Positions 1,947 through 26,511 of a DNA stretch of 64,000 nt are shown here, in pieces. The stretch comes from Glaciecola amylolytica. Its GTDB lineage: Bacteria; Bacteroidota; Bacteroidia; Flavobacteriales_D; Crocinitomicaceae. Position 1 is the stretch's first letter; each line of letters opens with the position of its first letter. The stretch lies in contig CP034120.1 of the NCBI GenBank assembly GCA_003856375.1, positions 4,087,501 to 4,151,500 of the forward strand, in the 5' to 3' direction. Made by a program: the position numbers and the translations under genes. Below the pieces are notes generated by a model. The model worked only from the letters and a program-made list of their open reading frames with translations, had not been told where the DNA came from and did no database searches.

Positions 1947-4900
1947 TTAGTCTTTATACTCATCCCGCAACAAACGCTCTTCCACTTCTTTCAGGTTTTG
2001 CATTTTCTTGGTTTGTCGGCTTGCAATGGCTGTTGGGGTGAAATAGGTATGCATATTCAAAAACGCAACCTGCATATTGTCCCACTGGCGGTCACCTTCT
2101 ATCTTTCCATGCTCACGCAGCTCTCTTCTCAGTCGGTCTGCAATTTCGTGGAAATCGTCTCTTCCCAGGTAATCCAGATCTGCATCGCAAATGATTTGCT
2201 CCAGTTTGTTTTTCGGTTTGTGTGGAATCTGAGTCACGAAAATGAGTTCTTTGATCTGGGCAATGTGCTGATCGGAATATCCGTATTTCGGCAATATTTC
2301 CTCCGCCATTCGCGCTCCTATCGGTTCGTTTTTCTCGTAGTTTTCCACAAATCCGGCATCGTGATACGTTGCTGCAGATTTCAAGAGGAACAAGCCTTCA
2401 TCCGTTACTCCTTCCAATAAGGCATAACGTTCCACGGCGCGCACCACGTCTTTGGTGTGTTCAATACTATGATAATGCAGCATCGGCGACAAACCTTTCT
2501 CCAACACTTTCATGATGTGGCGTTCTGCTTTATAGTAGTTGATGCTGCTGTATAAATGCAGGTTGACAATCTGCTGGAAGCGTTCATTCGGATACAAGCC
2601 TTCCCCGCCAACAGATAGTTCGGGTTTGATCCGCTCTACCGTAAACATTTCGATCAGGCCTTTGCTTTTGGTTCTTACTTTTCCGCGATAAGTACATTCA
2701 AAATACGGTTCTATCAGTTTGAACGTCGAGCCAGAAATCGTTACCCTTCCCGGTTCACCCATCATCTCCATCCGCTGAGCCTGGTTCACCGTTGCTCCCC
2801 AGATATCATAGGCCAATCTTTCCGAGCCGATAACTCCGGCTGTTACTTCTCCGGTATTGATTCCCAAACGCAGTTCCCAATATTCCGTTCCGTTTTCAAG
2901 AGCTTCTTTTTTCAATCCCGCGATATAATCCTGAATCTGGAGCGCAGCCAAAACCGCATCAATCGGATTGGTATTGTTTCGAACGGGAACTCCACCGGCA
3001 CACATATATGCATCACCGATCGTTTTGATCTTTTCCAGGTTATTCTTTACAATGATTTCATCAAACTTTCTAAAGTAAACATCCAGTTTGTTTACCAAAT
3101 CTGTCGGCTTGAGTCCTTCTGCAATTTTGGTAAATCCAACAAAATCCGTAAATAAAACCGAAACCGTTTTGTAGGCCCTTGCAGATGCCCGGCCTTTCGT
3201 TTTCAATTCTTCCGCGGTCGATTCCGGAATAATGTTTCTCAGTAATTTTTCCGTTTTGTCTTTTTCTATCTGCAGTAATCTTCTTTGTTCTTCAACTTTG
3301 TTCTTCTCCTCCTCAATGACTTTCTTCTGAGATTCGATTTTCATGTTTTGAGCCCGGATCTCTTTCGTTCTCTCCACAATTTTCATTTCCAAACGAACCT
3401 GATCCCTGCGCGCCAAATCTATTCTGGAGCGGATAAAGACAATGATCACGATGGTCAGAACCAATAGTACAATCACCCAAAACCACCATTTCCACCAAAA
3501 AGGAGAGGCTACTTCAATGCTCATTTGCGTACTCGCCTGCACCCAATCTCCGTCCACTCTCCGAACGTATACTTTCAATACATAAGATCCGGGAGTCAAA
3601 GAAGTAAAGTGAATTTCGCTGGACGAGCCCAAAAACACGGAGCCTTCATCCAGGCCTTCCAATTCGTATTTGAACTGCAGCAGATCACGGTTGATCAGAT
3701 CAGTCGGAACAAAACGAATGGTGAAGCTGCGTTCATTGTATTTCAGTTTGATGTCCGATTGGTATGGAAATGCGTCTTTAAAAGGCGCATCTTTATCTCC
3801 CGGACGAAGCCATTGATCATCAAAGCGAAACTTCAGAAAATTCACATAAACTTCTTCATTTCGTTCCTGCAATGAAGTCGGATTAAAGAAGTTATAACCC
3901 TCAATTCCTCCGAAATACATTTCACCGGTTCCTGAAAGCAAATAAGCTCCGGTATTGAATTCATTACTCATCAAACCATTCACCTCCGAATAGTTGGTGC
4001 ATCGTTCCTGCAGAATATCGAATCTGCAAAGTCCTTTATTGGTGCTCAGCCACAAATTTCCTTTTTGATCCGGAAGAATTCCGTAAACAAAATTGTTGGG
4101 TAAACCTTGCTTGCGTGTAAATGCCGTAACCTTTCCTGTCTTTAAATCCAATTTCAGTAATCCGGAACCGGAAGATCCCAGCCAAAGCGTTGATTCATCT
4201 TCCTGATAGATGCTTGAGATGACATCCCGGCTTGCTTTCAGAATGGCTTTGTTTTGTGCATACGGAACAATTTGCTCCTTGCCGTTCTTATCCGTTTTCA
4301 GTACGTTGATTCCTCCAACTCCGGTTGCGAAGTAATAAACTCCGTTTAATCCTTTGTATGCAATTCTGCACACTCCGGCTCCGATACTTGCTTTTGGTTT
4401 TTGAGGATCGTAGACAAAAGGGGTAAAACTTCCGCTTTTTTTGTCATACAAGAGCACTCCGCCTTTTGTAGCAATAAAAAACTGTGTCTTTTTGTAGGGA
4501 GTAATTTCATAGACCCGCTGAAAACTCGACGGATTCGTAATTCCTTTATAATTGATTTTTTTGAAGGTTCCTTTTCCGTTTTGAATCACCAGTTCATACA
4601 AGCCGTCATTGGCTCCAACCAGCAGGTGTTCTTTATCCAGAAGATGAACAGAGACAATGCTCTTCTCATTAAAATCATCCGATTTGGAGATATAATAGTG
4701 TTGGAAAAGGCCGGTTTTCCGATCCAATTCCGAAATAGCAAAGTCCGTAGCAATAAATACTTTGGAATGATCCGGCGATTCCGCAAAGCCCCAAACACTT
4801 TCCGATGGCAGTCCCAAACTCAGATTGGCTGTGGGGCCGACTCCAAAAAATTCATCGTTTTTCGGGTTGAATCCGCTTAATCCGCGCAATGTTCCGATCC

Positions 4901-5879
4901 AGATCGTGCCGCTTCCGTCACAAAACAACTCGTTCAGCTCATTGAAGAGGATTCCGTTTTTCTGAAAAATATCTTTTTTGCTGAATGTTATCCGGTATCC
5001 GTCATTGGAACTGTTCACGCTGATCAATCCGTTGTTCACCGTTGCAATGTAAAACTCGGCCGTAGATTTCACATAAACATCCGAAAACTCTTCGATTCCG
5101 TAATCTGCTCCGATGAACTTCAGAAAAGGAAAAAGCTTTTGCGTTTTGACATCAAACAACCACAAGCCTTCATTACTTGACAGGATGTAGCTGTTTTCGG
5201 AAAACAATTCCACATCCGAAACCAGCCAGGTTTTTTTGATCTTTGGCGGAGCTAAGGATTTCCATTTTTCCGTTTTGAGATTGTAGATGTAAACACCCAC
5301 ATCTTCAAAGGAAACAAGCAATTCCTGTTTGGTAATGAATTTGATATAATGAATCCGCTTGGAAGGAATCGATCCCGTTAAAAAGGAAATCTTTTTGGTT
5401 TTCCGGTCGTATTTCGCCAAACCATGAGTGGAAGATCCCACCCAAATATTTCCGTTGTATTCTTCCGAAATTCCTTCGATGGAAAGATTGTTGTCATCTG
5501 ATGCCAGTAATGAGCGGAAGTTCTCCGTTTTCGGATTGTAAATTGAAATTCCGTCGGCTGTTCCGAACCACAATTCCCCGAACTGGTCTTTCAGACCGCA
5601 ATGAATATAGGAACTCGCCAGGCCGGGTGTATCGTCAGAAGTGTAGACTTCAAACTGCTGACCGTCAAAACGATTCAATCCATCCTGCGTTCCCAGCCAC
5701 AAAGTTCCCACTTCGTCCTGGACAATAGTCGTCACCGAACTCTGTGAGAGTCCATCGTTAATAGAAAAATTTCTAAAACGATATGAGACTTGACTTATCG
5801 CGCTAGTAGTAGTAAACGCAACAACAGCTCCAATTCCTATTAGTCGAACGAGCATCGTGTATTCATTTCGTTTATTCAA
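1947..5879 (-). CDS. periplasmic beta-propeller sensor with adenylate cyclase and C-terminal HD phosphohydrolase domains
   Basis: 1310 aa. In order: signal peptide (1-29), two-component-type propeller repeats (about 30-690, recurring GTxxGLxRF/ WLGT-like blades), a Y_Y_Y domain, one membrane segment near 790-810, a charged coiled coil (about 815-895), a class III nucleotidyl cyclase (about 905-1085), and an HD domain (about 1130-1265). Metal-binding Asp912 (FTDF) and Asp956 (TIGD), substrate Lys952 and Asp1025, and transition-state Asn1032 and Arg1036 are all present. The Lys/Asp pair predicts ATP as substrate, so cAMP. The HD domain keeps His1173-Asp1174 (YHDAGF) and a later CDAD, so it could hydrolyse phosphodiesters. 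The propeller probably senses a periplasmic or surface ligand. The gene lies 34 bp behind ferritin in the same direction. Domain calls are firm; activity is inferred. Confidence 0.88.
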   Translation of the reverse strand: MNKRNEYTMLVRLIGIGAVVAFTTTSAISQVSYRFRNFSINDGLSQSSVTTIVQDEVGTLWLGTQDGLNRFDGQQFEVYTSDDTPGLASSYIHCGLKDQFGELWFGTADGISIYNPKTENFRSLLASDDNNLSIEGISEEYNGNIWVGSSTHGLAKYDRKTKKISFLTGSIPSKRIHYIKFITKQELLVSFEDVGVYIYNLKTEKWKSLAPPKIKKTWLVSDVELFSENSYILSSNEGLWLFDVKTQKLFPFLKFIGADYGIEEFSDVYVKSTAEFYIATVNNGLISVNSSNDGYRITFSKKDIFQKNGILFNELNELFCDGSGTIWIGTLRGLSGFNPKNDEFFGVGPTANLSLGLPSESVWGFAESPDHSKVFIATDFAISELDRKTGLFQHYYISKSDDFNEKSIVSVHLLDKEHLLVGANDGLYELVIQNGKGTFKKINYKGITNPSSFQRVYEITPYKKTQFFIATKGGVLLYDKKSGSFTPFVYDPQKPKASIGAGVCRIAYKGLNGVYYFATGVGGINVLKTDKNGKEQIVPYAQNKAILKASRDVISSIYQEDESTLWLGSSGSGLLKLDLKTGKVTAFTRKQGLPNNFVYGILPDQKGNLWLSTNKGLCRFDILQERCTNYSEVNGLMSNEFNTGAYLLSGTGEMYFGGIEGYNFFNPTSLQERNEEVYVNFLKFRFDDQWLRPGDKDAPFKDAFPYQSDIKLKYNERSFTIRFVPTDLINRDLLQFKYELEGLDEGSVFLGSSSEIHFTSLTPGSYVLKVYVRRVDGDWVQASTQMSIEVASPFWWKWWFWVIVLLVLTIVIIVFIRSRIDLARRDQVRLEMKIVERTKEIRAQNMKIESQKKVIEEEKNKVEEQRRLLQIEKDKTEKLLRNIIPESTAEELKTKGRASARAYKTVSVLFTDFVGFTKIAEGLKPTDLVNKLDVYFRKFDEIIVKNNLEKIKTIGDAYMCAGGVPVRNNTNPIDAVLAALQIQDYIAGLKKEALENGTEYWELRLGINTGEVTAGVIGSERLAYDIWGATVNQAQRMEMMGEPGRVTISGSTFKLIEPYFECTYRGKVRTKSKGLIEMFTVERIKPELSVGGEGLYPNERFQQIVNLHLYSSINYYKAERHIMKVLEKGLSPMLHYHSIEHTKDVVRAVERYALLEGVTDEGLFLLKSAATYHDAGFVENYEKNEPIGARMAEEILPKYGYSDQHIAQIKELIFVTQIPHKPKNKLEQIICDADLDYLGRDDFHEIADRLRRELREHGKIEGDRQWDNMQVAFLNMHTYFTPTAIASRQTKKMQNLKEVEERLLRDEYKD

Positions 5880-6536: not shown

Positions 6537-7610
6537 TTAGGAGGAAACAAAATTTGCAGTTTCGTCATTCATTTTGCCCTGATTCTTGTTGTTCTTTTGA
6601 GTTATTTTTTCATAATGTTCCAAACCGATCCGCAAGCGTCTTTCGATGGATTTCCGCAATCTTTTCGGACTCAAAACGGTAATGCCCTCGCCAAACGAAA
6701 GAAATTCCTTTTCCAGTTCAAAATTATGGATGACATTCAGCGAAAGTGTTGCTCCGCGCTCGTCTTCTTCCAGAGTTTGCTGTGATCCATGCAACGGTTT
6801 GGAAATAACATAGGGCGCATGACGGCTATTCACCCGGAATACCACCGGTTCGGGTTTGTCTTTTAAAGAGCGGGTTACACCAATGCACGGCTTGAAATAA
6901 TTGTCCACATCGAAAAAAGCATCCTGATAAGGCAAGCGGTAATTCTCGTAAACATATTTCATCCGGTCGAGCGCCAGAATGAATTCCTTTTCCTGATTAT
7001 GAGTCGCACAAAGTAAAAACCAACGATTCCGGAATTCCTTCAATTTGTATGGATTTACCTGCATAACCGTGGGTGTTTTTGCCTTGAAACTCTGATAGTG
7101 AATGTCGAGTACTACTTTTTTCTGAATGGCTTTCACCAGGTGATCGATCCATTCCAAACCCGGCAGGCGGTGATTGGTTTCCAATTCTATGATCTCGCGC
7201 TGTTCACTGTTTGAAGCCAGAATTTTTCCTTCCAGTTTCGAAACCATTTCCTGCATTTCACGGAAATAACCGAAGCCTTTGAATTGTTTCAAAACGCTCA
7301 ACACTTCTTTCATCGTTCCCAGATCACCTTCACTTAAAGGAATGTTCGTAATGCTGTAATCTTTCTCTTCGTAAGTGTAATAACGTTTATCGACCACAAC
7401 GATCGGTGCGTTGTAGCCCAATTTATCGCTGCGCATGTTTTGCAGATCGAGCTGAACCGTTCGTTTTGAAACACCTCCTACTCCTTCATATTCATACAAA
7501 GCGTCTGCACAAGCTTCCACTAAATCTTCCAAAGTCCATTTTCGAAACCTGTTTTGCAAACATTTATCGATGGTTTTATAGCGAATTAACGCATGTTTTG
7601 ATACCGGCAT
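6537..7610 (-). CDS. WYL-domain transcriptional regulator, divergent from the rtcB operon
   Basis: 357 aa: an N-terminal winged-helix region (about 1-80, with SKRTVQLDLQNM as recognition-helix-like text) and a C-terminal WYL region (about 160-260; LDIHYQSF, then FRNRWFLLC and ILALDRMK). WYL regulators sense nucleic acid or small ligands and often control phage-defence and RNA-repair loci. Its position, divergent from the slipin-rtcB genes, and the matched inverted repeats in the spacer suggest it controls both itself and that operon (inference). The start at ATG 7610 (MPVSKHALIRYK) places a -7-like box 25 nt upstream. Confidence 0.88.
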   Translation of the reverse strand: MPVSKHALIRYKTIDKCLQNRFRKWTLEDLVEACADALYEYEGVGGVSKRTVQLDLQNMRSDKLGYNAPIVVVDKRYYTYEEKDYSITNIPLSEGDLGTMKEVLSVLKQFKGFGYFREMQEMVSKLEGKILASNSEQREIIELETNHRLPGLEWIDHLVKAIQKKVVLDIHYQSFKAKTPTVMQVNPYKLKEFRNRWFLLCATHNQEKEFILALDRMKYVYENYRLPYQDAFFDVDNYFKPCIGVTRSLKDKPEPVVFRVNSRHAPYVISKPLHGSQQTLEEDERGATLSLNVIHNFELEKEFLSFGEGITVLSPKRLRKSIERRLRIGLEHYEKITQKNNKNQGKMNDETANFVSS

Positions 7611-7634
7611 AGCTGAAAATTACATTTTTCTGTG

Positions 7635-7669
7635 CAAAGATGAAAATAATGTACGCAATCTATTTGCGT
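7635..7669 (-). promoter_or_regulatory. promoter and operator-like inverted repeat of the WYL regulator gene
   Basis: On the minus strand the inverted repeat ACGCAA-N5-TTGCGT (7653-7669) is followed after exactly 11 nt by ATCTTTG. CATCTTTG (7642-7635) is one base off the TAnnTTTG -7 box. The repeat therefore sits near the -30 region. The same layout recurs for the divergent rtcB side. Confidence 0.6.
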
Positions 7670-7752
7670 TGTTCTATTCATTGTGAACTAAATTCCATTC
7701 ATAAATACCTGTTTTTAAAGGAAGACAACAATTTTTTTGAAAAATATTCATG

Positions 7753-7788
7753 TGCGCAATTCAACTGCGCAGTGTGTCTAAATCTTTG
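7753..7788 (+). promoter_or_regulatory. promoter and operator-like inverted repeat of the slipin-rtcB operon
   Basis: The inverted repeat TGCGCA-N7-TGCGCA (7753-7771) resembles the one before the WYL gene. Measured from the TGCGC core, ATCTTTG follows after exactly 11 nt, the same spacing as on the other side. AATCTTTG (7781-7788) is one base off TAnnTTTG. A transcript would begin near 7795, immediately at the first leader hairpin. Confidence 0.6.
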
Positions 7789-7792
7789 TCAC

Positions 7793-8240
7793 ATCAAACA
7801 AAACAGAAAACGTTCTTTGAAATTGTTTGATAACGGAAATTCGCGCTTTGCAAACGAGATGTTGGTTTATACGCCACATTGTGCATCAGACTCTGTCGAA
7901 ATGTATCCAGTTGCAAAGAATGCTGTTTCTTCTTGTACATAGGGTACAGATACATGGGTCGTCGGTTCGAATCCGACAGTTATCTGAAAAATAACTTAAC
8001 TCAGTTGGTAGAGTAATGTCCGCTTAGGTTTCCAACCCAAGCACGTGTCTTTTAAACACGCTTAACAACAACCAAAAGGAGTAACCCGCTTTCGTGTCGG
8101 AGATTTTGTCCAGTACAAAATAACTGACCGGAATGTGAAGCCAGAGCTTTGAACGGTTTGTGCGGAACAACATCAACACTTTGATTCCTATAAGTGATTA
8201 GATGTTTTCCAATCAACAACTTCCTTGTTCCGCTGAACGG
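7793..8240 (+). ncRNA. long structured leader RNA upstream of slipin-rtcB
   Basis: About 450 nt with no credible ORF but dense pairing. Visible elements: ATCAAACAA/TTGTTTGAT (7793-7801 with 7823-7831); a three-way junction closed by ATGTATC/GATACAT (7901-7907 with 7949-7955) with arms AAGAA/TTCTT and TGTAC/GTACA; the permuted tRNA-like unit (listed separately); hairpin TTTTGT/ACAAAA (8104-8120) inside GTCGG/CTGAC; and a long hairpin GCGGAACAA/TTGTTCCGC (8162-8170 with 8225-8233) enclosing AACATC/GATGTT and CACTT/AAGTG. It could be a separate ncRNA or the 5' leader of the operon. Folding is by eye, not computed. Confidence 0.7.
7956..8060 (+). ncRNA. circularly permuted tRNA-like RNA with two anticodon-arm mimics (Y-RNA-like)
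   Basis: In order: GGGTC (variable-loop-like); T-arm GTCGG-TTCGAAT-CCGAC (7961-7977); acceptor stem AGTTAT/ATAACT (7978-7983 with 7991-7996) closed by a 7-nt loop; TA (7997-7998) in the place of U8-A9; D-arm ACTC-AGTTGGTA-GAGT (7999-8014); then hairpin GCTTAGG/CCCAAGC (8022-8042; one mismatch) with loop TTTCCAA (anticodon UCC, Gly); then CGTGT/ACACG (8044-8060) with loop CTTTTAA (anticodon UUU, Lys). T-arm before D-arm is a circular permutation, as I recall for the tRNA-like module of bacterial Y RNAs such as YrlA. It is not an ordinary tRNA gene. The function is unknown; its place before rtcB points to RNA repair or sensing of tRNA damage. Confidence 0.75.
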
Positions 8241-8293
8241 TCCGGAAAGCCGGTTGCTTCTTTTATTAAAAAATGAACTTAAAAACAAAAAAT

Positions 8294-9388
8294 ATGAAAA
8301 CAATAACTGTAACAAAAAACCAACGTGCATTAGTTTACAAAAACGGACAATTAACGGACGTTTTGAAATCGGGAACACACAACTTGTTCTGGGGTAAAAC
8401 CGCTCAAGTGATTTCTGCACAACCGGCAATCAACGCTCAGGCTGCTTTGTTTGCGGAGTTAGAGAACGGCGAGTTTTCGAACTTACTGACTCGTTACGAG
8501 GTGGATTCGAACCAGTTATTGTTGCGATTCTTAGGTAAGAATATCATTGAAACATACAATGTCGGAACCTACTTGTTCTGGAAATCCGAGATGGCGATTT
8601 CCTACGAGTTGATCGAAACCTCATCAACTACGAATATTACAAACTTTGACCGTGCGGTGTTGGAGTCTTCGATTATGATTGAGCGTGTGCACCGCGTAGT
8701 TGTTCCGGAAGGAAATCAGTTGGTGGTGTTCGTGAACGGAGCTTATCAATACACTTTGACTGCAGATACCTATTACTTCTGGAAGAATGCGAATGTGTTC
8801 ACCTTCAAAGTAGTTGATTTGCGAACATTGAATATCGAAGTTCAGGGTCAGGAATTGTTGACCAAAGACAAAACATCGATTCGTGTGAATTTCTCCGGTC
8901 AATACAAAATGGTCAATATTCACCGGGCGGTGGTTGAAAATTCCAACTACTATACTCAAATGTATGCAGCCATTCAATTGGCAATCCGTGAAATCATCGG
9001 TGCACAAACCTTAGATCAGTTGTTGGAAACAAAAACAGAATTGTCGAATCAATTGGTGGAACGGGCAAATGCTTTGTTGGAAAACATCGGTTTGGAATTG
9101 ATTACCGGAGGATTAAAAGACATCATTTTGCCGGGAGATGTGAAAGAGATTTTGAACAAGGTGTTGGTTGCCGAAAAACAAGCACAGGCAAACATGATCA
9201 TGCGTCGGGAGGAAACTGCAACCACGCGAAACTTGTTAAACACAGCCCGATTGATGGAAGAAAACGACATGTTATACAAATTGAAAGAAATGGAATTTGT
9301 GGAGCGTATCGCCGATAAAATTGACGGAATTCAGGTTCATGCCGGAGCAAATGTCTCTGATCAGTTGAAAACCTTATTCTCAAAATAA
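8294..9388 (+). CDS. slipin/SPFH (band 7) family protein of the rtcB operon
   Basis: 364 aa from ATG 8294 (MKTITVTKNQRALVYKNGQ); an ATG at 8273 is in frame but adds only seven residues and lacks the family start. The first about 100 residues carry a family-specific module that recurs weakly (ALVYKNGQ.. LFW and VVFVNGAY.. YFW). The SPFH domain follows (about 130-290; VVDLRTLNIEVQGQELLTKD), then a helical tail with VAEKQAQANMIMRREE. No transmembrane segment is obvious. SPFH proteins form oligomeric membrane scaffolds. A pairing with RtcB suggests a platform for RNA repair (inference; I recall such pairs from comparative genomics). It lies 101 bp before rtcB. Confidence 0.85.
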   Translation: MKTITVTKNQRALVYKNGQLTDVLKSGTHNLFWGKTAQVISAQPAINAQAALFAELENGEFSNLLTRYEVDSNQLLLRFLGKNIIETYNVGTYLFWKSEMAISYELIETSSTTNITNFDRAVLESSIMIERVHRVVVPEGNQLVVFVNGAYQYTLTADTYYFWKNANVFTFKVVDLRTLNIEVQGQELLTKDKTSIRVNFSGQYKMVNIHRAVVENSNYYTQMYAAIQLAIREIIGAQTLDQLLETKTELSNQLVERANALLENIGLELITGGLKDIILPGDVKEILNKVLVAEKQAQANMIMRREETATTRNLLNTARLMEENDMLYKLKEMEFVERIADKIDGIQVHAGANVSDQLKTLFSK

Positions 9389-9489: not shown

Positions 9490-10908
9490 ATGAGAAATAT
9501 TACCGGTTCTGTTTTAGTTGAGATTGGGTTTCCATCCAACGAAGCTTTCGGAAAGGCATTGAAAGTGTTGAAGAAAAACGCCAAAAGAAACGGATTAGAA
9601 AATTTATTGGCAGAAGTGAAATTGGTGTTGGAAACTCCGGCTGATTTTGCGGAACATGCATTATGGGCAGACGCCGCCAACGAATTGATTGCCATTGAAG
9701 CCAGAAAAGCGCATATGATTCCTTTGAGAGAAGAAGCATTGCCGTTCGCAGTTTATGGAGAAGCACAGATTGAAAAAGGTGCTTTTGACCAAATGAAAAC
9801 TGCCATGAAATTGCCCGTTACCGCTTTCGGAGCTTTGATGCCCGATGCACATCAAGGTTATGGATTGCCGATCGGGGGCGTTTTGGCTACAAAAGATGCC
9901 ATTATTCCTTACGGTGTCGGTGTCGACATCGGATGTAGAATGTGTTTGAGTATTTACGATATTCCGGGAGATTTCTACTTCGGGAACGAGGCACAATTGA
10001 AAAGAGAATTGATTGCTTATTCCCGATTCGGAGCCGGAGCCGCCTGGACAAAAGGAATGAAAGCCGATCATGCCATTCTGGAAAGAGATGAATTCAACCA
10101 GATTCCGATGTTGAAAACCCTGATGGATAAAGCACATACGCAATTGGGAACTTCAGGCGGAGGAAACCATTTCGTAGAATTCGGATTGCTGGAAGTTCTT
10201 CAGGAAGATGAATCCATCAATATTCCAAAAGGAACCTATCTGGCTTTGCTGACACATTCCGGATCGAGAGGTTTGGGAGCAACCGTTGCCGGACATTACA
10301 CCAAGGTGGCGAAAGAATCCTGTGTATTGCCGGATGAAGCACGGAACCTGGCATACCTGGATTTAAACTCCGACAACGGAAAAGAATACTGGGCGGCAAT
10401 GAATCTGGCCGGTGATTATGCTTCTGCCTGTCATCACGTGATTCATGACCGGATTACCAAAGCCATTGGCGCGACTTGTTTAAAGCGGGTTGAAAACCAT
10501 CATAATTTTGCATGGAAGGAAATTCACTTCGGAGAAGAATACATTGTGCATAGAAAAGGTGCAACTCCGGCTGCAGAAGGCGTTTTGGGAATTATTCCGG
10601 GAAGTATGACTGCGCCGGGATTCCTGGTGAAGGGAAAAGGAAAACCGGAATCCTTAGCATCCGCTTCGCACGGTGCAGGACGACAAATGAGCCGGACACA
10701 AGCTTTCAAAACTGTTCAACGGGACGAATTGAAAGAAATCCTGAAAACGCACGGAGTAACCTTAATCGGAGCCGGACTGGACGAAGCTCCGATGGCTTAC
10801 AAAAACATCGAAGAAGTCATGAAATCACAGGAAGATCTGGTAGATGTTCTTGCACGATTTACACCAAAAATGGTCAGAATGGCCGAAGACGGAAGCAGGG
10901 AGGATTAA
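9490..10908 (+). CDS. rtcB: RNA-splicing/repair ligase RtcB
   Basis: 472 aa; joins RNA 2',3'-cyclic-phosphate or 3'-phosphate ends to 5'-OH ends using GTP and Mn2+. Key family motifs are intact: MPDAHQGYGLPIGGV, GVGVDIGCRM with Asp146 and Cys149 as metal ligands, HSGSRG, and SHGAGR with His394, the residue that becomes guanylylated. It is longer than E. coli RtcB (408 aa), the extra length being partly an N-terminal block of about 85 residues before the core. It is downstream of a slipin gene and a tRNA-like RNA, and has its own terminator. It probably heals tRNAs cut by ribotoxins. No rtcA, archease or Ro/Rsr gene is visible in the window. Confidence 0.96.
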   Translation: MRNITGSVLVEIGFPSNEAFGKALKVLKKNAKRNGLENLLAEVKLVLETPADFAEHALWADAANELIAIEARKAHMIPLREEALPFAVYGEAQIEKGAFDQMKTAMKLPVTAFGALMPDAHQGYGLPIGGVLATKDAIIPYGVGVDIGCRMCLSIYDIPGDFYFGNEAQLKRELIAYSRFGAGAAWTKGMKADHAILERDEFNQIPMLKTLMDKAHTQLGTSGGGNHFVEFGLLEVLQEDESINIPKGTYLALLTHSGSRGLGATVAGHYTKVAKESCVLPDEARNLAYLDLNSDNGKEYWAAMNLAGDYASACHHVIHDRITKAIGATCLKRVENHHNFAWKEIHFGEEYIVHRKGATPAAEGVLGIIPGSMTAPGFLVKGKGKPESLASASHGAGRQMSRTQAFKTVQRDELKEILKTHGVTLIGAGLDEAPMAYKNIEEVMKSQEDLVDVLARFTPKMVRMAEDGSRED

Positions 10909-10961: not shown

Positions 10962-10969
10962 TACTTTTG
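10962..10969 (+). promoter_or_regulatory. -7 promoter box (TACTTTTG) of rnr
   Basis: TACTTTTG matches TAnnTTTG and lies 18 nt before ATG 10988. It includes a TTG that could be mistaken for an earlier start codon, so the box also argues for the ATG as the start. Confidence 0.6.
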
Positions 10970-10987
10970 TTAAACACAACGAAAAAA

Positions 10988-13144
10988 ATGGGTAAGAAAA
11001 AACCAAAAAAAATAAAAGATAAATCAACCAAAAAACTAAAAACCGGCCTGTATCACATTATTCGAAAGCTATTTGAACAACATCAGGACTCGCTTTTAAA
11101 CTATAAACAAGTTTGCACCTTATTGCATGTTCATGAAAGTGAGTCGCGCAAATTGGTGGTGGCTTTATTACGCGAATTGGAAACAGAAGGATTTATCCGT
11201 AAAAGCGGGCACGAAACCTATCAGTTTTCCAATCAGACGGAAACCGTTGAAGGAGAATTAGAACTCACTCAGCGCGGTTCCGGATTCGTAAATCTCGGGA
11301 AAAATCAAGCGGATATTTTCATTGCTCCTCATAATATCGGGCAAGCCATTCACGGAGATATTGTCCGGGTTGCGCTTACCAAAAAAAGCGGAAACAGACC
11401 GGAAGGAAGAATTCTGGAAGTTATTTCCCGCGAACGAACTCAGTTTGTGGGTACAATTCATATGTATGACAAACATGCTTTCCTGATTCCGGATAATACC
11501 AAAACGGGGGTGAAAATCTACATTCCGTTTGAAAAACTCAATAAAGCAAAAAACAAGGATAAGGCTTTGGTGAAAATCACCGTTTGGCCGAAATCTGCTG
11601 AATTTCCGTTCGGAGAAGTAATTCAGACTTTGGGAGGAAACTCGCTGCACGACAATGAAATGATTTCCATTTTGGTCAGCCAGGGAATTCCGATCGAATT
11701 TGAAGCGGATGTTATGACCGAAGCAGAACAGGTGACTTTGGAACTGGATCCGGCAGAAGTAGCCAAACGACGCGATTTCCGTGATATTCTGACTTTCACC
11801 ATTGACCCCGTCGATGCGAAGGATTTTGATGATGCTTTGTCGATCCAAAAACTGGAAAACGGACATCTCGAAATCGGTGTGCACATTGCAGACGTAAGTC
11901 AGTACGTGAAACCGGATTCTGCCATGGACAAAGAAGCGCTTAAGCGCGGAAATTCTGTTTATTTGGTTGATCGTGTGATTCCGATGCTTCCGGAGCAGCT
12001 TTCGAATATGGTTTGTTCCCTTCGACCGAAGGAGGATAAATTCACTTTTTCAGCTGTTTTCGAAATCGATGAAAAGGGGAAAATTTACAAGGAGTGGTTC
12101 GGAAAAACAGTGATCCATTCTGACCATCGTTTCACCTATGAAGATGCGCAGGAAATTTTGGAAGGAGCAGAAGGTCCGTACAAAGAAGAATTGCATCTTT
12201 TGGATAAACTCGCAAAAATCTATCGAAAAGAGCGATTTAAAAAGGGTGCTTTGATGATCAACTCGGAAGAGATTCGTTTCAAACTGGATGAAAACAAAGA
12301 ACCGGTTGACGTGGTTGTGAAGGTTTCGAAAGATGCTCATCAGCTGATCGAAGAATTCATGCTTCTTGCGAATAAACACGTAGCGATGTTTGTTGGGAAA
12401 CCACAAAAAGGGAAAGATCCTGTTCCTTTCGTTTACCGTGTTCACGACAAGCCGGATCCGGAGAAAATCGCATTATTCAGTTTATTTTTGGATAAATTCG
12501 GTTATTCTTTGGAATTCACAAGCCCTGAAAAAGCGGCGGAAAGTATTAACAAATTACTGAATGATATCCGTTTGAAAAACGAGTACAACATCATTCAGCA
12601 AATGGCGATCCGAAGCATGGCGAAAGCCACTTACGACACAGATAATATCGGTCACTACGGTTTGGCTTTTGAATATTACGGACATTTTACCTCACCGATT
12701 CGTCGGTACGCCGATTTGATGGTTCACCGCATTTTGCAGGAATGCCTGGAAAACAAACCGCACAAATACAATCAGGTTCTGGACGATATCTGCAAGCGCA
12801 TTTCACGTACTGAACGCAAAGCAACGGAAGCGGAACGCGAATCCAACAAATACTTCCAGGTGGTGTTTGTTCACGATAAAATCGGTGAAGAGTTTGACGG
12901 AATTGTTTCCGGTTTGGCTGAATTCGGATTGTTTGTGCGCATGAACGAAAATGCATGTGAAGGAATGGTTGCATTGCAGGGGCTTCCCGGAGATCGTTAT
13001 TCCTTCGATGAGAAGACGATGACGATTGTGGGACAGAAAACCGGCAGAACCTTCCATTTCGGAGATTCGGTACGTGTGAAGATTTCAGAAGTGAGTCCGA
13101 GAAAACGCACCATTGATCTGGAGTTGGTTTCGGTTGAGGAGTGA
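10988..13144 (+). CDS. rnr: ribonuclease R (RNB-family 3'-5' exoribonuclease)
   Basis: 718 aa from ATG 10988 (MGKKKPKKIKDK). In order: Lys-rich N-terminus, winged-helix region (about 25-85), cold-shock/OB domains (about 90-240), the RNB catalytic domain (about 255-580; RRDFRDILTFTIDPVDAKDFDDALS holds the Asp cluster that binds Mg2+), and a C-terminal S1 domain (about 640-715; FDGIVSGLAEFGLFVRM). RNase R degrades structured RNA, including damaged tRNA and rRNA. It has its own -7 box after the rtcB terminator, so it is a neighbour of the RtcB locus rather than clearly the same operon. The stop is at 13144. Confidence 0.96.
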   Translation: MGKKKPKKIKDKSTKKLKTGLYHIIRKLFEQHQDSLLNYKQVCTLLHVHESESRKLVVALLRELETEGFIRKSGHETYQFSNQTETVEGELELTQRGSGFVNLGKNQADIFIAPHNIGQAIHGDIVRVALTKKSGNRPEGRILEVISRERTQFVGTIHMYDKHAFLIPDNTKTGVKIYIPFEKLNKAKNKDKALVKITVWPKSAEFPFGEVIQTLGGNSLHDNEMISILVSQGIPIEFEADVMTEAEQVTLELDPAEVAKRRDFRDILTFTIDPVDAKDFDDALSIQKLENGHLEIGVHIADVSQYVKPDSAMDKEALKRGNSVYLVDRVIPMLPEQLSNMVCSLRPKEDKFTFSAVFEIDEKGKIYKEWFGKTVIHSDHRFTYEDAQEILEGAEGPYKEELHLLDKLAKIYRKERFKKGALMINSEEIRFKLDENKEPVDVVVKVSKDAHQLIEEFMLLANKHVAMFVGKPQKGKDPVPFVYRVHDKPDPEKIALFSLFLDKFGYSLEFTSPEKAAESINKLLNDIRLKNEYNIIQQMAIRSMAKATYDTDNIGHYGLAFEYYGHFTSPIRRYADLMVHRILQECLENKPHKYNQVLDDICKRISRTERKATEAERESNKYFQVVFVHDKIGEEFDGIVSGLAEFGLFVRMNENACEGMVALQGLPGDRYSFDEKTMTIVGQKTGRTFHFGDSVRVKISEVSPRKRTIDLELVSVEE

Positions 13145-26438: not shown

Positions 26439-26440
26439 AG

Positions 26441-26511
26441 AGGTCTCGTCCGGATTCGAACCGGAGTGCACGGTTTTGCAGACCGGTGCCTAACCGCTCG
26501 GCCACGAGACC
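26441..26511 (-). tRNA. tRNA-Cys (anticodon GCA)
   Basis: 71-nt cloverleaf on the minus strand: acceptor GGTCTCG/CGAGACC, D-arm with GCGGTTAGGC, anticodon loop CTGCAAA reading GCA, T-arm TCCGG-TTCGAAT-CCGGA, discriminator U. No CCA is encoded. Followed by its own terminator. Confidence 0.96.

Follow-up and report, generated by a model that had tools for sequence, protein, structure and literature searches.

The closest described counterparts of the RNA reported here are the YrlA RNAs (Rfam RF02553) of rsr-yrlA-rtcBA operons, in which a T-arm, a closed acceptor and a D-arm stand in permuted order over a closing stem that resembles an anticodon stem; modification by TruB and DusA is a further trait of YrlA. 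In the available text of Hughes et al. (PMC7790460), the tRNA-like domain of YrlA is proposed as a competitive inhibitor of anticodon nuclease, and YrlA fragments were undetected in Salmonella when tRNAs were cut; binding of PNPase by the YrlA effector domain is described in the available part of a further report (PMC8394870). Another related system is the Anabaena TrcR regulon: the accessible portion of the source (PMC10272220) places a 26-tRNA operon, rtcB and a slipin gene (alr0740) under a single repressor, and states that the trn operon, rtcB and the slipin gene rise under chloramphenicol stress. The arrangement of a tRNA array, RtcB and a slipin under one repressor is, in kind, that of the loci described here; the Anabaena regulon differs in its RHH repressor, its scattered genes and the lack of any mention of a tRNA-mimic RNA in that portion of the source.

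From our analysis of 64,000 nt of Glaciecola amylolytica (assembly GCA_003856375.1, contig CP034120.1, forward strand 4,087,501-4,151,500; this whole stretch is hereafter the window), we found a permuted tRNA-like module in the DNA between a divergent gene for a WYL regulator and a slipin gene [Table 1]. The tRNA-repair setting proposed by the first-pass annotation of this DNA agrees with the genes for slipin, RtcB and an RNase R-type exoribonuclease downstream of the RNA; rtcB is one gene downstream of the RNA, the adjoining slipin gene lying between, in keeping with an RtcB RNA-repair operon. Judging from the N-termini of relatives, slipin translation may begin at the ATG at 8294. Elsewhere in the window (1947-5879, minus strand), a 1310-aa protein combines an adenylate/guanylate cyclase domain with a Y_Y_Y domain and propeller repeats of the two-component-regulator type. 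Positions are numbered and tertiary pairs named as in tRNA, and GNRA denotes the class of tetraloops.

Table 1. Coordinates of features around the permuted tRNA module in the window.
Feature	Position	Strand	Basis
WYL-WCX transcription regulator, divergent	6537..7610	-	Pfam PF13280 + PF25583
Palindrome CGCA-N7-TGCG, WYL side, candidate regulator site	7654..7668		Pattern scan
Palindrome CGCA-N7-TGCG, second, upstream of RNA, candidate operator	7755..7769		Pattern scan
Presumed boxA-like element GTTCTTTGA	7812..7820	+	57 nt after start of second palindrome
5' domain element GTTGGTTTATACGCCACATTGTGCATC, with hairpin 7859-7866/7873-7879	7859..7888	+	Aligned with relatives' GTTGGGTGTTTCnGTATAGCACnATTGTA; hairpin predicted
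Permuted tRNA module M1	7951..8020	+	Sequence, Rfam YrlA, covariance model, relatives
M1 anticodon stem, 3' strand TACAT	7951-7955	+	
M1 variable loop GGGTC	7956-7960	+	
M1 T-arm GTCGG-TTCGAAT-CCGAC	7961-7977	+	
M1 acceptor hairpin AGTTAT-CTGAAAA-ATAACT, 7-nt loop	7978-7996	+	
M1 U8-A9 (T8 A9)	7997-7998	+	
M1 D-arm ACTC-AGTTGGTA-GAGT	7999-8014	+	
M1 position 26	8015	+	
M1 anticodon stem, 5' strand ATGTC	8016-8020	+	
Anticodon-arm-like hairpin 1, loop TTTCCAA (U33, UCC, A37), one A.C stem mismatch	8022..8042	+	Read from sequence
Anticodon-arm-like hairpin 2, 7-nt loop CTTTTAA (U33, UUU, A37)	8044..8060	+	Sequence, folding, relatives' hairpin count
3' domain, predicted 19-pair closing helix 8074-8093/8245-8264	8074..8264	+	Single-sequence prediction
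Slipin/SPFH (Band_7) protein	8273..9388	+	Pfam PF01145 E 2.3e-24
RtcB RNA ligase	9490..10908	+	Pfam PF01139 E 5.2e-83
RNase R-type exoribonuclease, downstream of rtcB	10967..13144	+	Pfam PF00773 E 1.6e-112

All the elements of the order that had been read at first, T-arm, closed acceptor hairpin, U8-A9 and D-arm, are present in the module (M1). Within the extent then given, 7956-8060, the elements described stand, but the closing anticodon stem had been missed; its two strands pair at four of five positions. As this closing stem is the anticodon stem in permuted order, M1 mimics a tRNA that is open at the anticodon loop: the acceptor end is shut by a hairpin loop, and both RNA ends exit where the anticodon loop would be. 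A covariance model (R2), trained on slipin loci only and without the row of the window and that of the same genus, matched the module with 62 bits (E 1.2e-19), which was its sole match up to E 1 across the 64 kb. The Rfam YrlA model, run on 671 bases, matched 7948-8024 with 38.0 bits (E 9.9e-7), a significant score that is under the gathering score of 69 bits; the match (model positions 18-91 of 114) spans the tRNA-like part, with the Ro-binding ends (1-17 and 92-114) unmatched. An ordinary tRNA was rejected, as the acceptor end is not open and as ARAGORN and Rfam at gathering threshold made no call at the module, the only tRNA in the window being a tRNA-Cys at about 26440-26511.

We then compared the locus with its relatives. 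With its own genome included, the slipin was found in 12 of the 150 family genomes searched, in 15 of 399 from the order and in 20 of 395 from the phylum, and these were joined by 14 loci on genome contigs, mostly of Winogradskyella; merging left 49 slipin loci, some of them from sister genomes. Scanning up to 760 nt upstream of slipin recovered permuted cores in 48 of the 49 loci, so that the recurrence of the fold held: one core in 17 loci, two in 27 and three in 4, a few of the extra cores looking spurious. The exception (L054) lacks a D-arm and keeps only a degenerate version of T-arm and acceptor hairpin. First modules (M1) mostly have the closing stem, and second modules (M2) are often directly followed by a complete anticodon hairpin. 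Weak matches of the tmRNA model (18-25 bits against a cut-off of 47) were seen over or adjoining the first module of some relatives (L015:1672-1746, L020:3330-3394, L022:3342-3430, L023:3300-3363 and L026:3349-3423).

For the comparison of first modules, 43 M1 rows (39 distinct) were collected, after one was removed as M2-type (L010) and another added at three of five closing pairs (L013); L027, L040, L041 and L046 gave no M1 row and L054 no module. Three alignments were made, A1 from 32 of the 39 distinct rows, A2 from 27 rows out of the 31 distinct ones whose acceptor loop is at most 8 nt long, and A3 from 24 of the 27 rows in A2 (window, L003 and L047 omitted). In the 32 distinct rows, changes on both sides occur in 17 of 19 pairs and in all four helices, as the covariation foreseen for a genuine fold demands; 98.2% of cells are paired against 70.6% when shuffled, and the covariation score is 0.836 against 0.253 when shuffled and at most 0.204 with slid partners. 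The scan itself accepted only paired stems in the T-arm, acceptor and D-arm, tolerating one mismatch in the acceptor, and the M1 rows were selected for at least four of five closing pairs; therefore the tests of acceptor pairing and of tertiary positions weigh more. Of 84 T-arm/D-arm neighbours up to 700 nt upstream of slipin, 75 have all five acceptor positions paired; the figure is 9 of 112 for such neighbours in the rest of these loci, which by position are chiefly tRNA arrays, and 5.7% when partners are shuffled. Both U8 and A14 are kept in 39 of 39 rows, and the tertiary pair 15-48 is G-C in 35, A-U in 3 and A-A in 1. That the module is a relic of a decayed array, its T-arm and D-arm being chance neighbours from broken tandem tRNAs, is barely credible: the upstream DNA of relatives does contain tRNA arrays, and the module model does give scores to tandem tRNAs, but the acceptor pairing, the 15-48 changes, the stem covariation and the presence in 48 of 49 loci contradict it. 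Judged from these comparisons, the window element is a real, conserved tRNA mimic.

Permuted tRNA genes exist in some algae and archaea, and the RNA could conceivably be a precursor that is cut and religated by RtcB into real tRNAs. Such processing would suit the second modules of relatives with their full anticodon arm after the D-arm, the RtcB genes near many loci and some acceptor loops of about 20 nt, which are sufficient for end processing. It is nevertheless a very improbable account, as first modules have an anticodon stem without a loop, their acceptor loops are at most 8 nt in 32 of 43 rows and GNRA tetraloops in 7 of 43, and the window is without a second module; its single module offers no complete anticodon arm that could be joined into a mature tRNA, although, from the sequence, a later joining of the hairpins is conceivable.

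The kinship with Y RNAs, which had been suspected from the start, was strengthened by the Rfam match and by R2, which, although trained on slipin loci, matched at least one site in each of the 13 Ro/RtcB-linked loci tried (11 obtained via Rfam YrlA, one via a TROVE search and L104 via a sister model, R1). The closing stem, variable loop, T-arm, acceptor hairpin and D-arm are also present at the Ro/RtcB-linked loci (ten inspected, and L028). It is this architecture, and not the score, that carries the kinship, because tandem ordinary tRNAs score with such models too, and the scores of our own models alone fail to separate modules from neighbouring ordinary tRNAs. Genome searches gave matches in 122 of 395 genomes (and 6 of 14 control genomes) with Rfam YrlA at E 1e-3, and in 354 of 395 with R1 at E 1e-4; the YrlA search missed the window, its stricter filters losing weak matches. 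Among 60 loci fetched from both searches (duplicates included), 24 had slipin, 21 had TROVE and/or RtcB without slipin (20 with TROVE, 13 of these also with RtcB; L055 with RtcB alone, the overlapping L098 having TROVE) and 15 had none of the three. All 15 proved to be neighbouring ordinary tRNAs, and hence we claim no module frequency from the genome-wide searches.

The gene for Ro60/Rsr (TROVE) is absent from the genome of the window, and only 2 of 16 genomes with a slipin-RNA locus have TROVE, one of which (G071) has an additional, separate module adjoining its Ro gene. A Ro-type basal motif (GTGYYGT...TTRCC) was derived from Ro loci and loosened after these had been inspected, the slipin loci being 0 of 48 for the complete motif either way. 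Both halves were found in 10 of 16 Ro/RtcB-linked loci and neither half in 4; in the 48 slipin loci the 5' half was found in none, the 3' half in 3 and both in none, and the window has neither half. The RNA thus shares with YrlA the permuted core, a place in an RNA-repair locus and an architecture identical to that at Ro loci. Unlike YrlA systems, the window has no Ro60 gene and no Ro-type basal motif, and a WYL regulator and slipin replace RtcR and Rsr; the RNAs of slipin loci further differ in their tandem modules (in relatives), anticodon-arm hairpins and large flanking domains. Our literature search, in which subscription papers were largely absent, brought up no report of an RNA at slipin or WYL loci that resembles YrlA but is independent of Ro. 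Since the genome has no Ro60 gene and the RNA no Ro-type basal stem, we take it as Ro-independent; on the sequences at hand, it is a YrlA-like variant of slipin/RNA-ligase islands, and new as a variant.

The common architecture with Ro-locus modules also allows for an effector tether of the kind described for Y RNA, Ro and PNPase: the module would bring PNPase or RNase R to tRNA debris, the part of Ro being played by slipin or a different protein. The RNase R gene after rtcB, the RNase_T exonucleases that adjoin the slipin loci of two genomes without RtcB (G726 and G616) and the PNPase binding of the YrlA effector domain (PMC8394870, available part) fit with such a role. We regard it as improbable, as there is no Ro, nor a complete Ro-type motif, and as the anticodon-arm hairpins are given no role.

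The surroundings of the module vary from locus to locus. RtcB was found in the examined flanks of 14 of the 49 loci, window included, four of these matches being only 27-30% identical, and WYL in those of 8, window included; none of 14 loci of the Winogradskyella/Hanstruepera group had RtcB within about 1.7-4 kb downstream. In ten genomes examined further out, the added stretches held RtcB in 6 (2 of which were already among the 14) and WYL in 3. Among the four of these ten without RtcB, G726 and G616 encode an RLIG1-like RNA ligase beside the exonuclease, joined in G616 by a calcineurin-like phosphoesterase; in G467 and G718, whose proteins were family-scanned in part or not at all, no ligase came to light. 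The RLIG1-like ligases (PF17720; L036:3357-3926 and L119:9417-9986) adjoin slipin loci without RtcB. Using ARAGORN on 25 loci, we found at least two tRNA genes in 20 and up to 16 in a locus, with one in L025 and none in L003, L009, L012 and L013. One genome (G004; L007, L115/L116) has, in a single stretch, a WYL gene, 11 tRNAs, the RNA and slipin, together with another 13 tRNA calls and a divergent RtcB; tRNAs flank its slipin on both sides. ARAGORN assigned unusual anticodons in the arrays of L015, L016, L017, L018, L021 and L025 (Tyr ATA; Phe AAA in L015).

Between the tRNA genes and the modules, GOLLD RNA (RF02032) was matched in 6 of 19 loci (L016, L018, L019, L024, L025 and L027; e.g., L016:2729-3230), all on contigs of the Winogradskyella/Hanstruepera group and with 119-136 bits, which is under the curated cut-off of 150 with E below 1e-30. 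No GOLLD match was found in 7620-8290 up to E 5, nor in the window at the gathering score. The function of GOLLD is given as unknown in the available part of its source (PMC12286853). The adjacency of tRNA genes, GOLLD and modules in relatives recalls the GOLLD RNA and tRNA arrays of phages and mycobacteria, GOLLD itself being a different RNA. We saw no sign of a phage origin: a pattern scan of viral contigs gave no slipin relative, and tblastn against a phage collection gave no match at E 1e-10. The palindrome CGCA-N7-TGCG occurs twice in the window against 0.64 expected, with at least two in 16 of 100 shuffles. Of the 49 loci, 27 have at least one copy in the DNA upstream of slipin (101 kb), compared with 6 matches in 98 kb of downstream DNA; some of the upstream matches fall within modules or arrays. 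GTTCTTT or GCTCTTT stands 49-57 nt past the start of a palindrome in 11 of 49 loci; the name boxA for the GTTCTTTGA element, and with it the antitermination role of boxA, is our assumption.

The module is predicted to sit in a larger RNA of about 440 nt, with anticodon-arm-like hairpins, directly 5' of the slipin-RtcB pair. A 129-nt stretch folded alone has no unusual stability (z -0.72; 46 of 200 shuffles equally stable), and in the minimum-energy fold of 439 nt the D-arm and the closing strands pair upstream instead, while the T-arm, the acceptor hairpin and both anticodon-like hairpins are kept; the whole of 7830-8268 has z -3.47, with none of 100 shuffles as stable. Support for the proposed fold is derived from comparison and not from energy. 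Many relatives (e.g., L041, L044, L051) have, no more than 150 nt past their last module, a possible H-type pseudoknot with an A-rich loop, e.g., AGAAG-CATCC-CTTCT-CTAAAAA-GGATG. A scan gave it in 37 of 48 loci, where 20 shuffles that preserve base composition only averaged 12.65 and never exceeded 17; its positions differ among loci, and it was not found in the window.

As the RNA directly precedes the ORF, its predicted end (8264) being a few bases before the slipin start (8273 or 8294), a cis-acting leader is conceivable: the mimic, bound by RtcB, another tRNA-binding protein or the regulator, would control translation or decay of the slipin-rtcB message, such that an unoccupied repair enzyme shuts off its own synthesis. 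The modules are also steadier upstream of slipin (48 of 49 loci) than RtcB, WYL or tRNA arrays are in the DNA examined. However, the spacing between module and slipin varies from about 300 to 670 nt, and in relatives the presence of tRNA arrays in this upstream DNA points to a transcript processed into stable RNAs; on balance we find a leader rather unlikely.

The two anticodon-arm-like hairpins that had been described after the module, with 7-nt loops and the triplets UCC and UUU, are present; folding programs close the loop of the first one further. Counting perfect 5-bp hairpins over the 70 nt that follow the last module (48 loci), we obtained 71 with 7-nt loops; each of the other loop sizes from 4 to 10 gave 18-39, and shuffles that keep base composition only gave a mean of 18.5 (maximum 32) for 7-nt loops. 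U33 and a purine at 37 occur together in 47 of the 71 (shuffled mean 2.8, maximum 8), six of the 47 being T-arms by their TTCGA loop; in a wider count with T-arms excluded, 67 such hairpins were found in 40 of 48 loci. Between 46 cross-locus pairs with identical stems, there are 32, 19 and 18 differences at positions 34, 35 and 36 against 4, 1 and 2 at positions 32, 37 and 38, in an unshuffled count for which 33 was fixed and 37 purine-only by selection, some chance hairpins are included and the pairs are non-independent. The commonest triplets in the anticodon-like hairpins of relatives are CAA (11), UUU (10), GUU (5), UAA (5) and GAA (4).

PrrC targets tRNA-Lys, and the UUU loop had been taken as a link to this nuclease. 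The link found no support: the genome has no match to PF13166 (PrrC/RloC-like), UUU is one of many triplets in relatives, and the share of loci with RtcB in their flanks is only 14 of 49. A variable triplet on fixed stems suggests a contest with anticodon nucleases, and the varied triplets are compatible with a bait for several of them, other causes of triplet change being possible as well. The anticodon loop is likewise contested in phage tRNAs whose anticodon-loop mutations reportedly evade tRNA-targeting defences (PMC10264068); those are tRNAs, whereas the window module is permuted and closed at the acceptor.

We tentatively favour, at a little less than an even chance, a Ro-independent YrlA-like tRNA mimic that serves as a decoy or scaffold for tRNA-cutting or tRNA-repair enzymes. 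Damage to tRNAs would lift WYL repression at the candidate CGCA-N7-TGCG sites, and the RNA would be transcribed as a stable RNA along with the repair genes, to which spare tRNAs would be added in relatives. The modules look like tRNAs that have been opened at the anticodon loop, and varied triplets stand in the anticodon loops of the side hairpins; such mimics may occupy tRNA-cutting nucleases or proteins that handle tRNA ends (ligase, exonuclease or a slipin-anchored complex), while RtcB would reseal the cut tRNAs. M1 is a plausible competitor or gauge for repair enzymes because it has the outline of a tRNA opened at the anticodon loop, as after an anticodon nuclease, with its acceptor ends joined. 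A role as cleavage bait may fail for the module, as YrlA fragments went undetected in Salmonella during tRNA cutting (PMC7790460, available text). A possible but doubtful extension of the decoy reading is that one transcript shows both mimics of anticodon-cut tRNAs and changing anticodon arms, a bait diversifying under attack by anticodon nucleases; spare tRNAs, an RNA ligase and at times GOLLD would be expressed along with it.

In essence, the slipin loci show the tRNA-mimic module known from bacterial Y RNAs apart from Ro60, by which the module's own role becomes testable, and they place Y-RNA-like modules, tRNA arrays, GOLLD RNA and RNA ligases in one type of island. A variable triplet on a constant anticodon-like stem is the opposite of what a working tRNA gene preserves.
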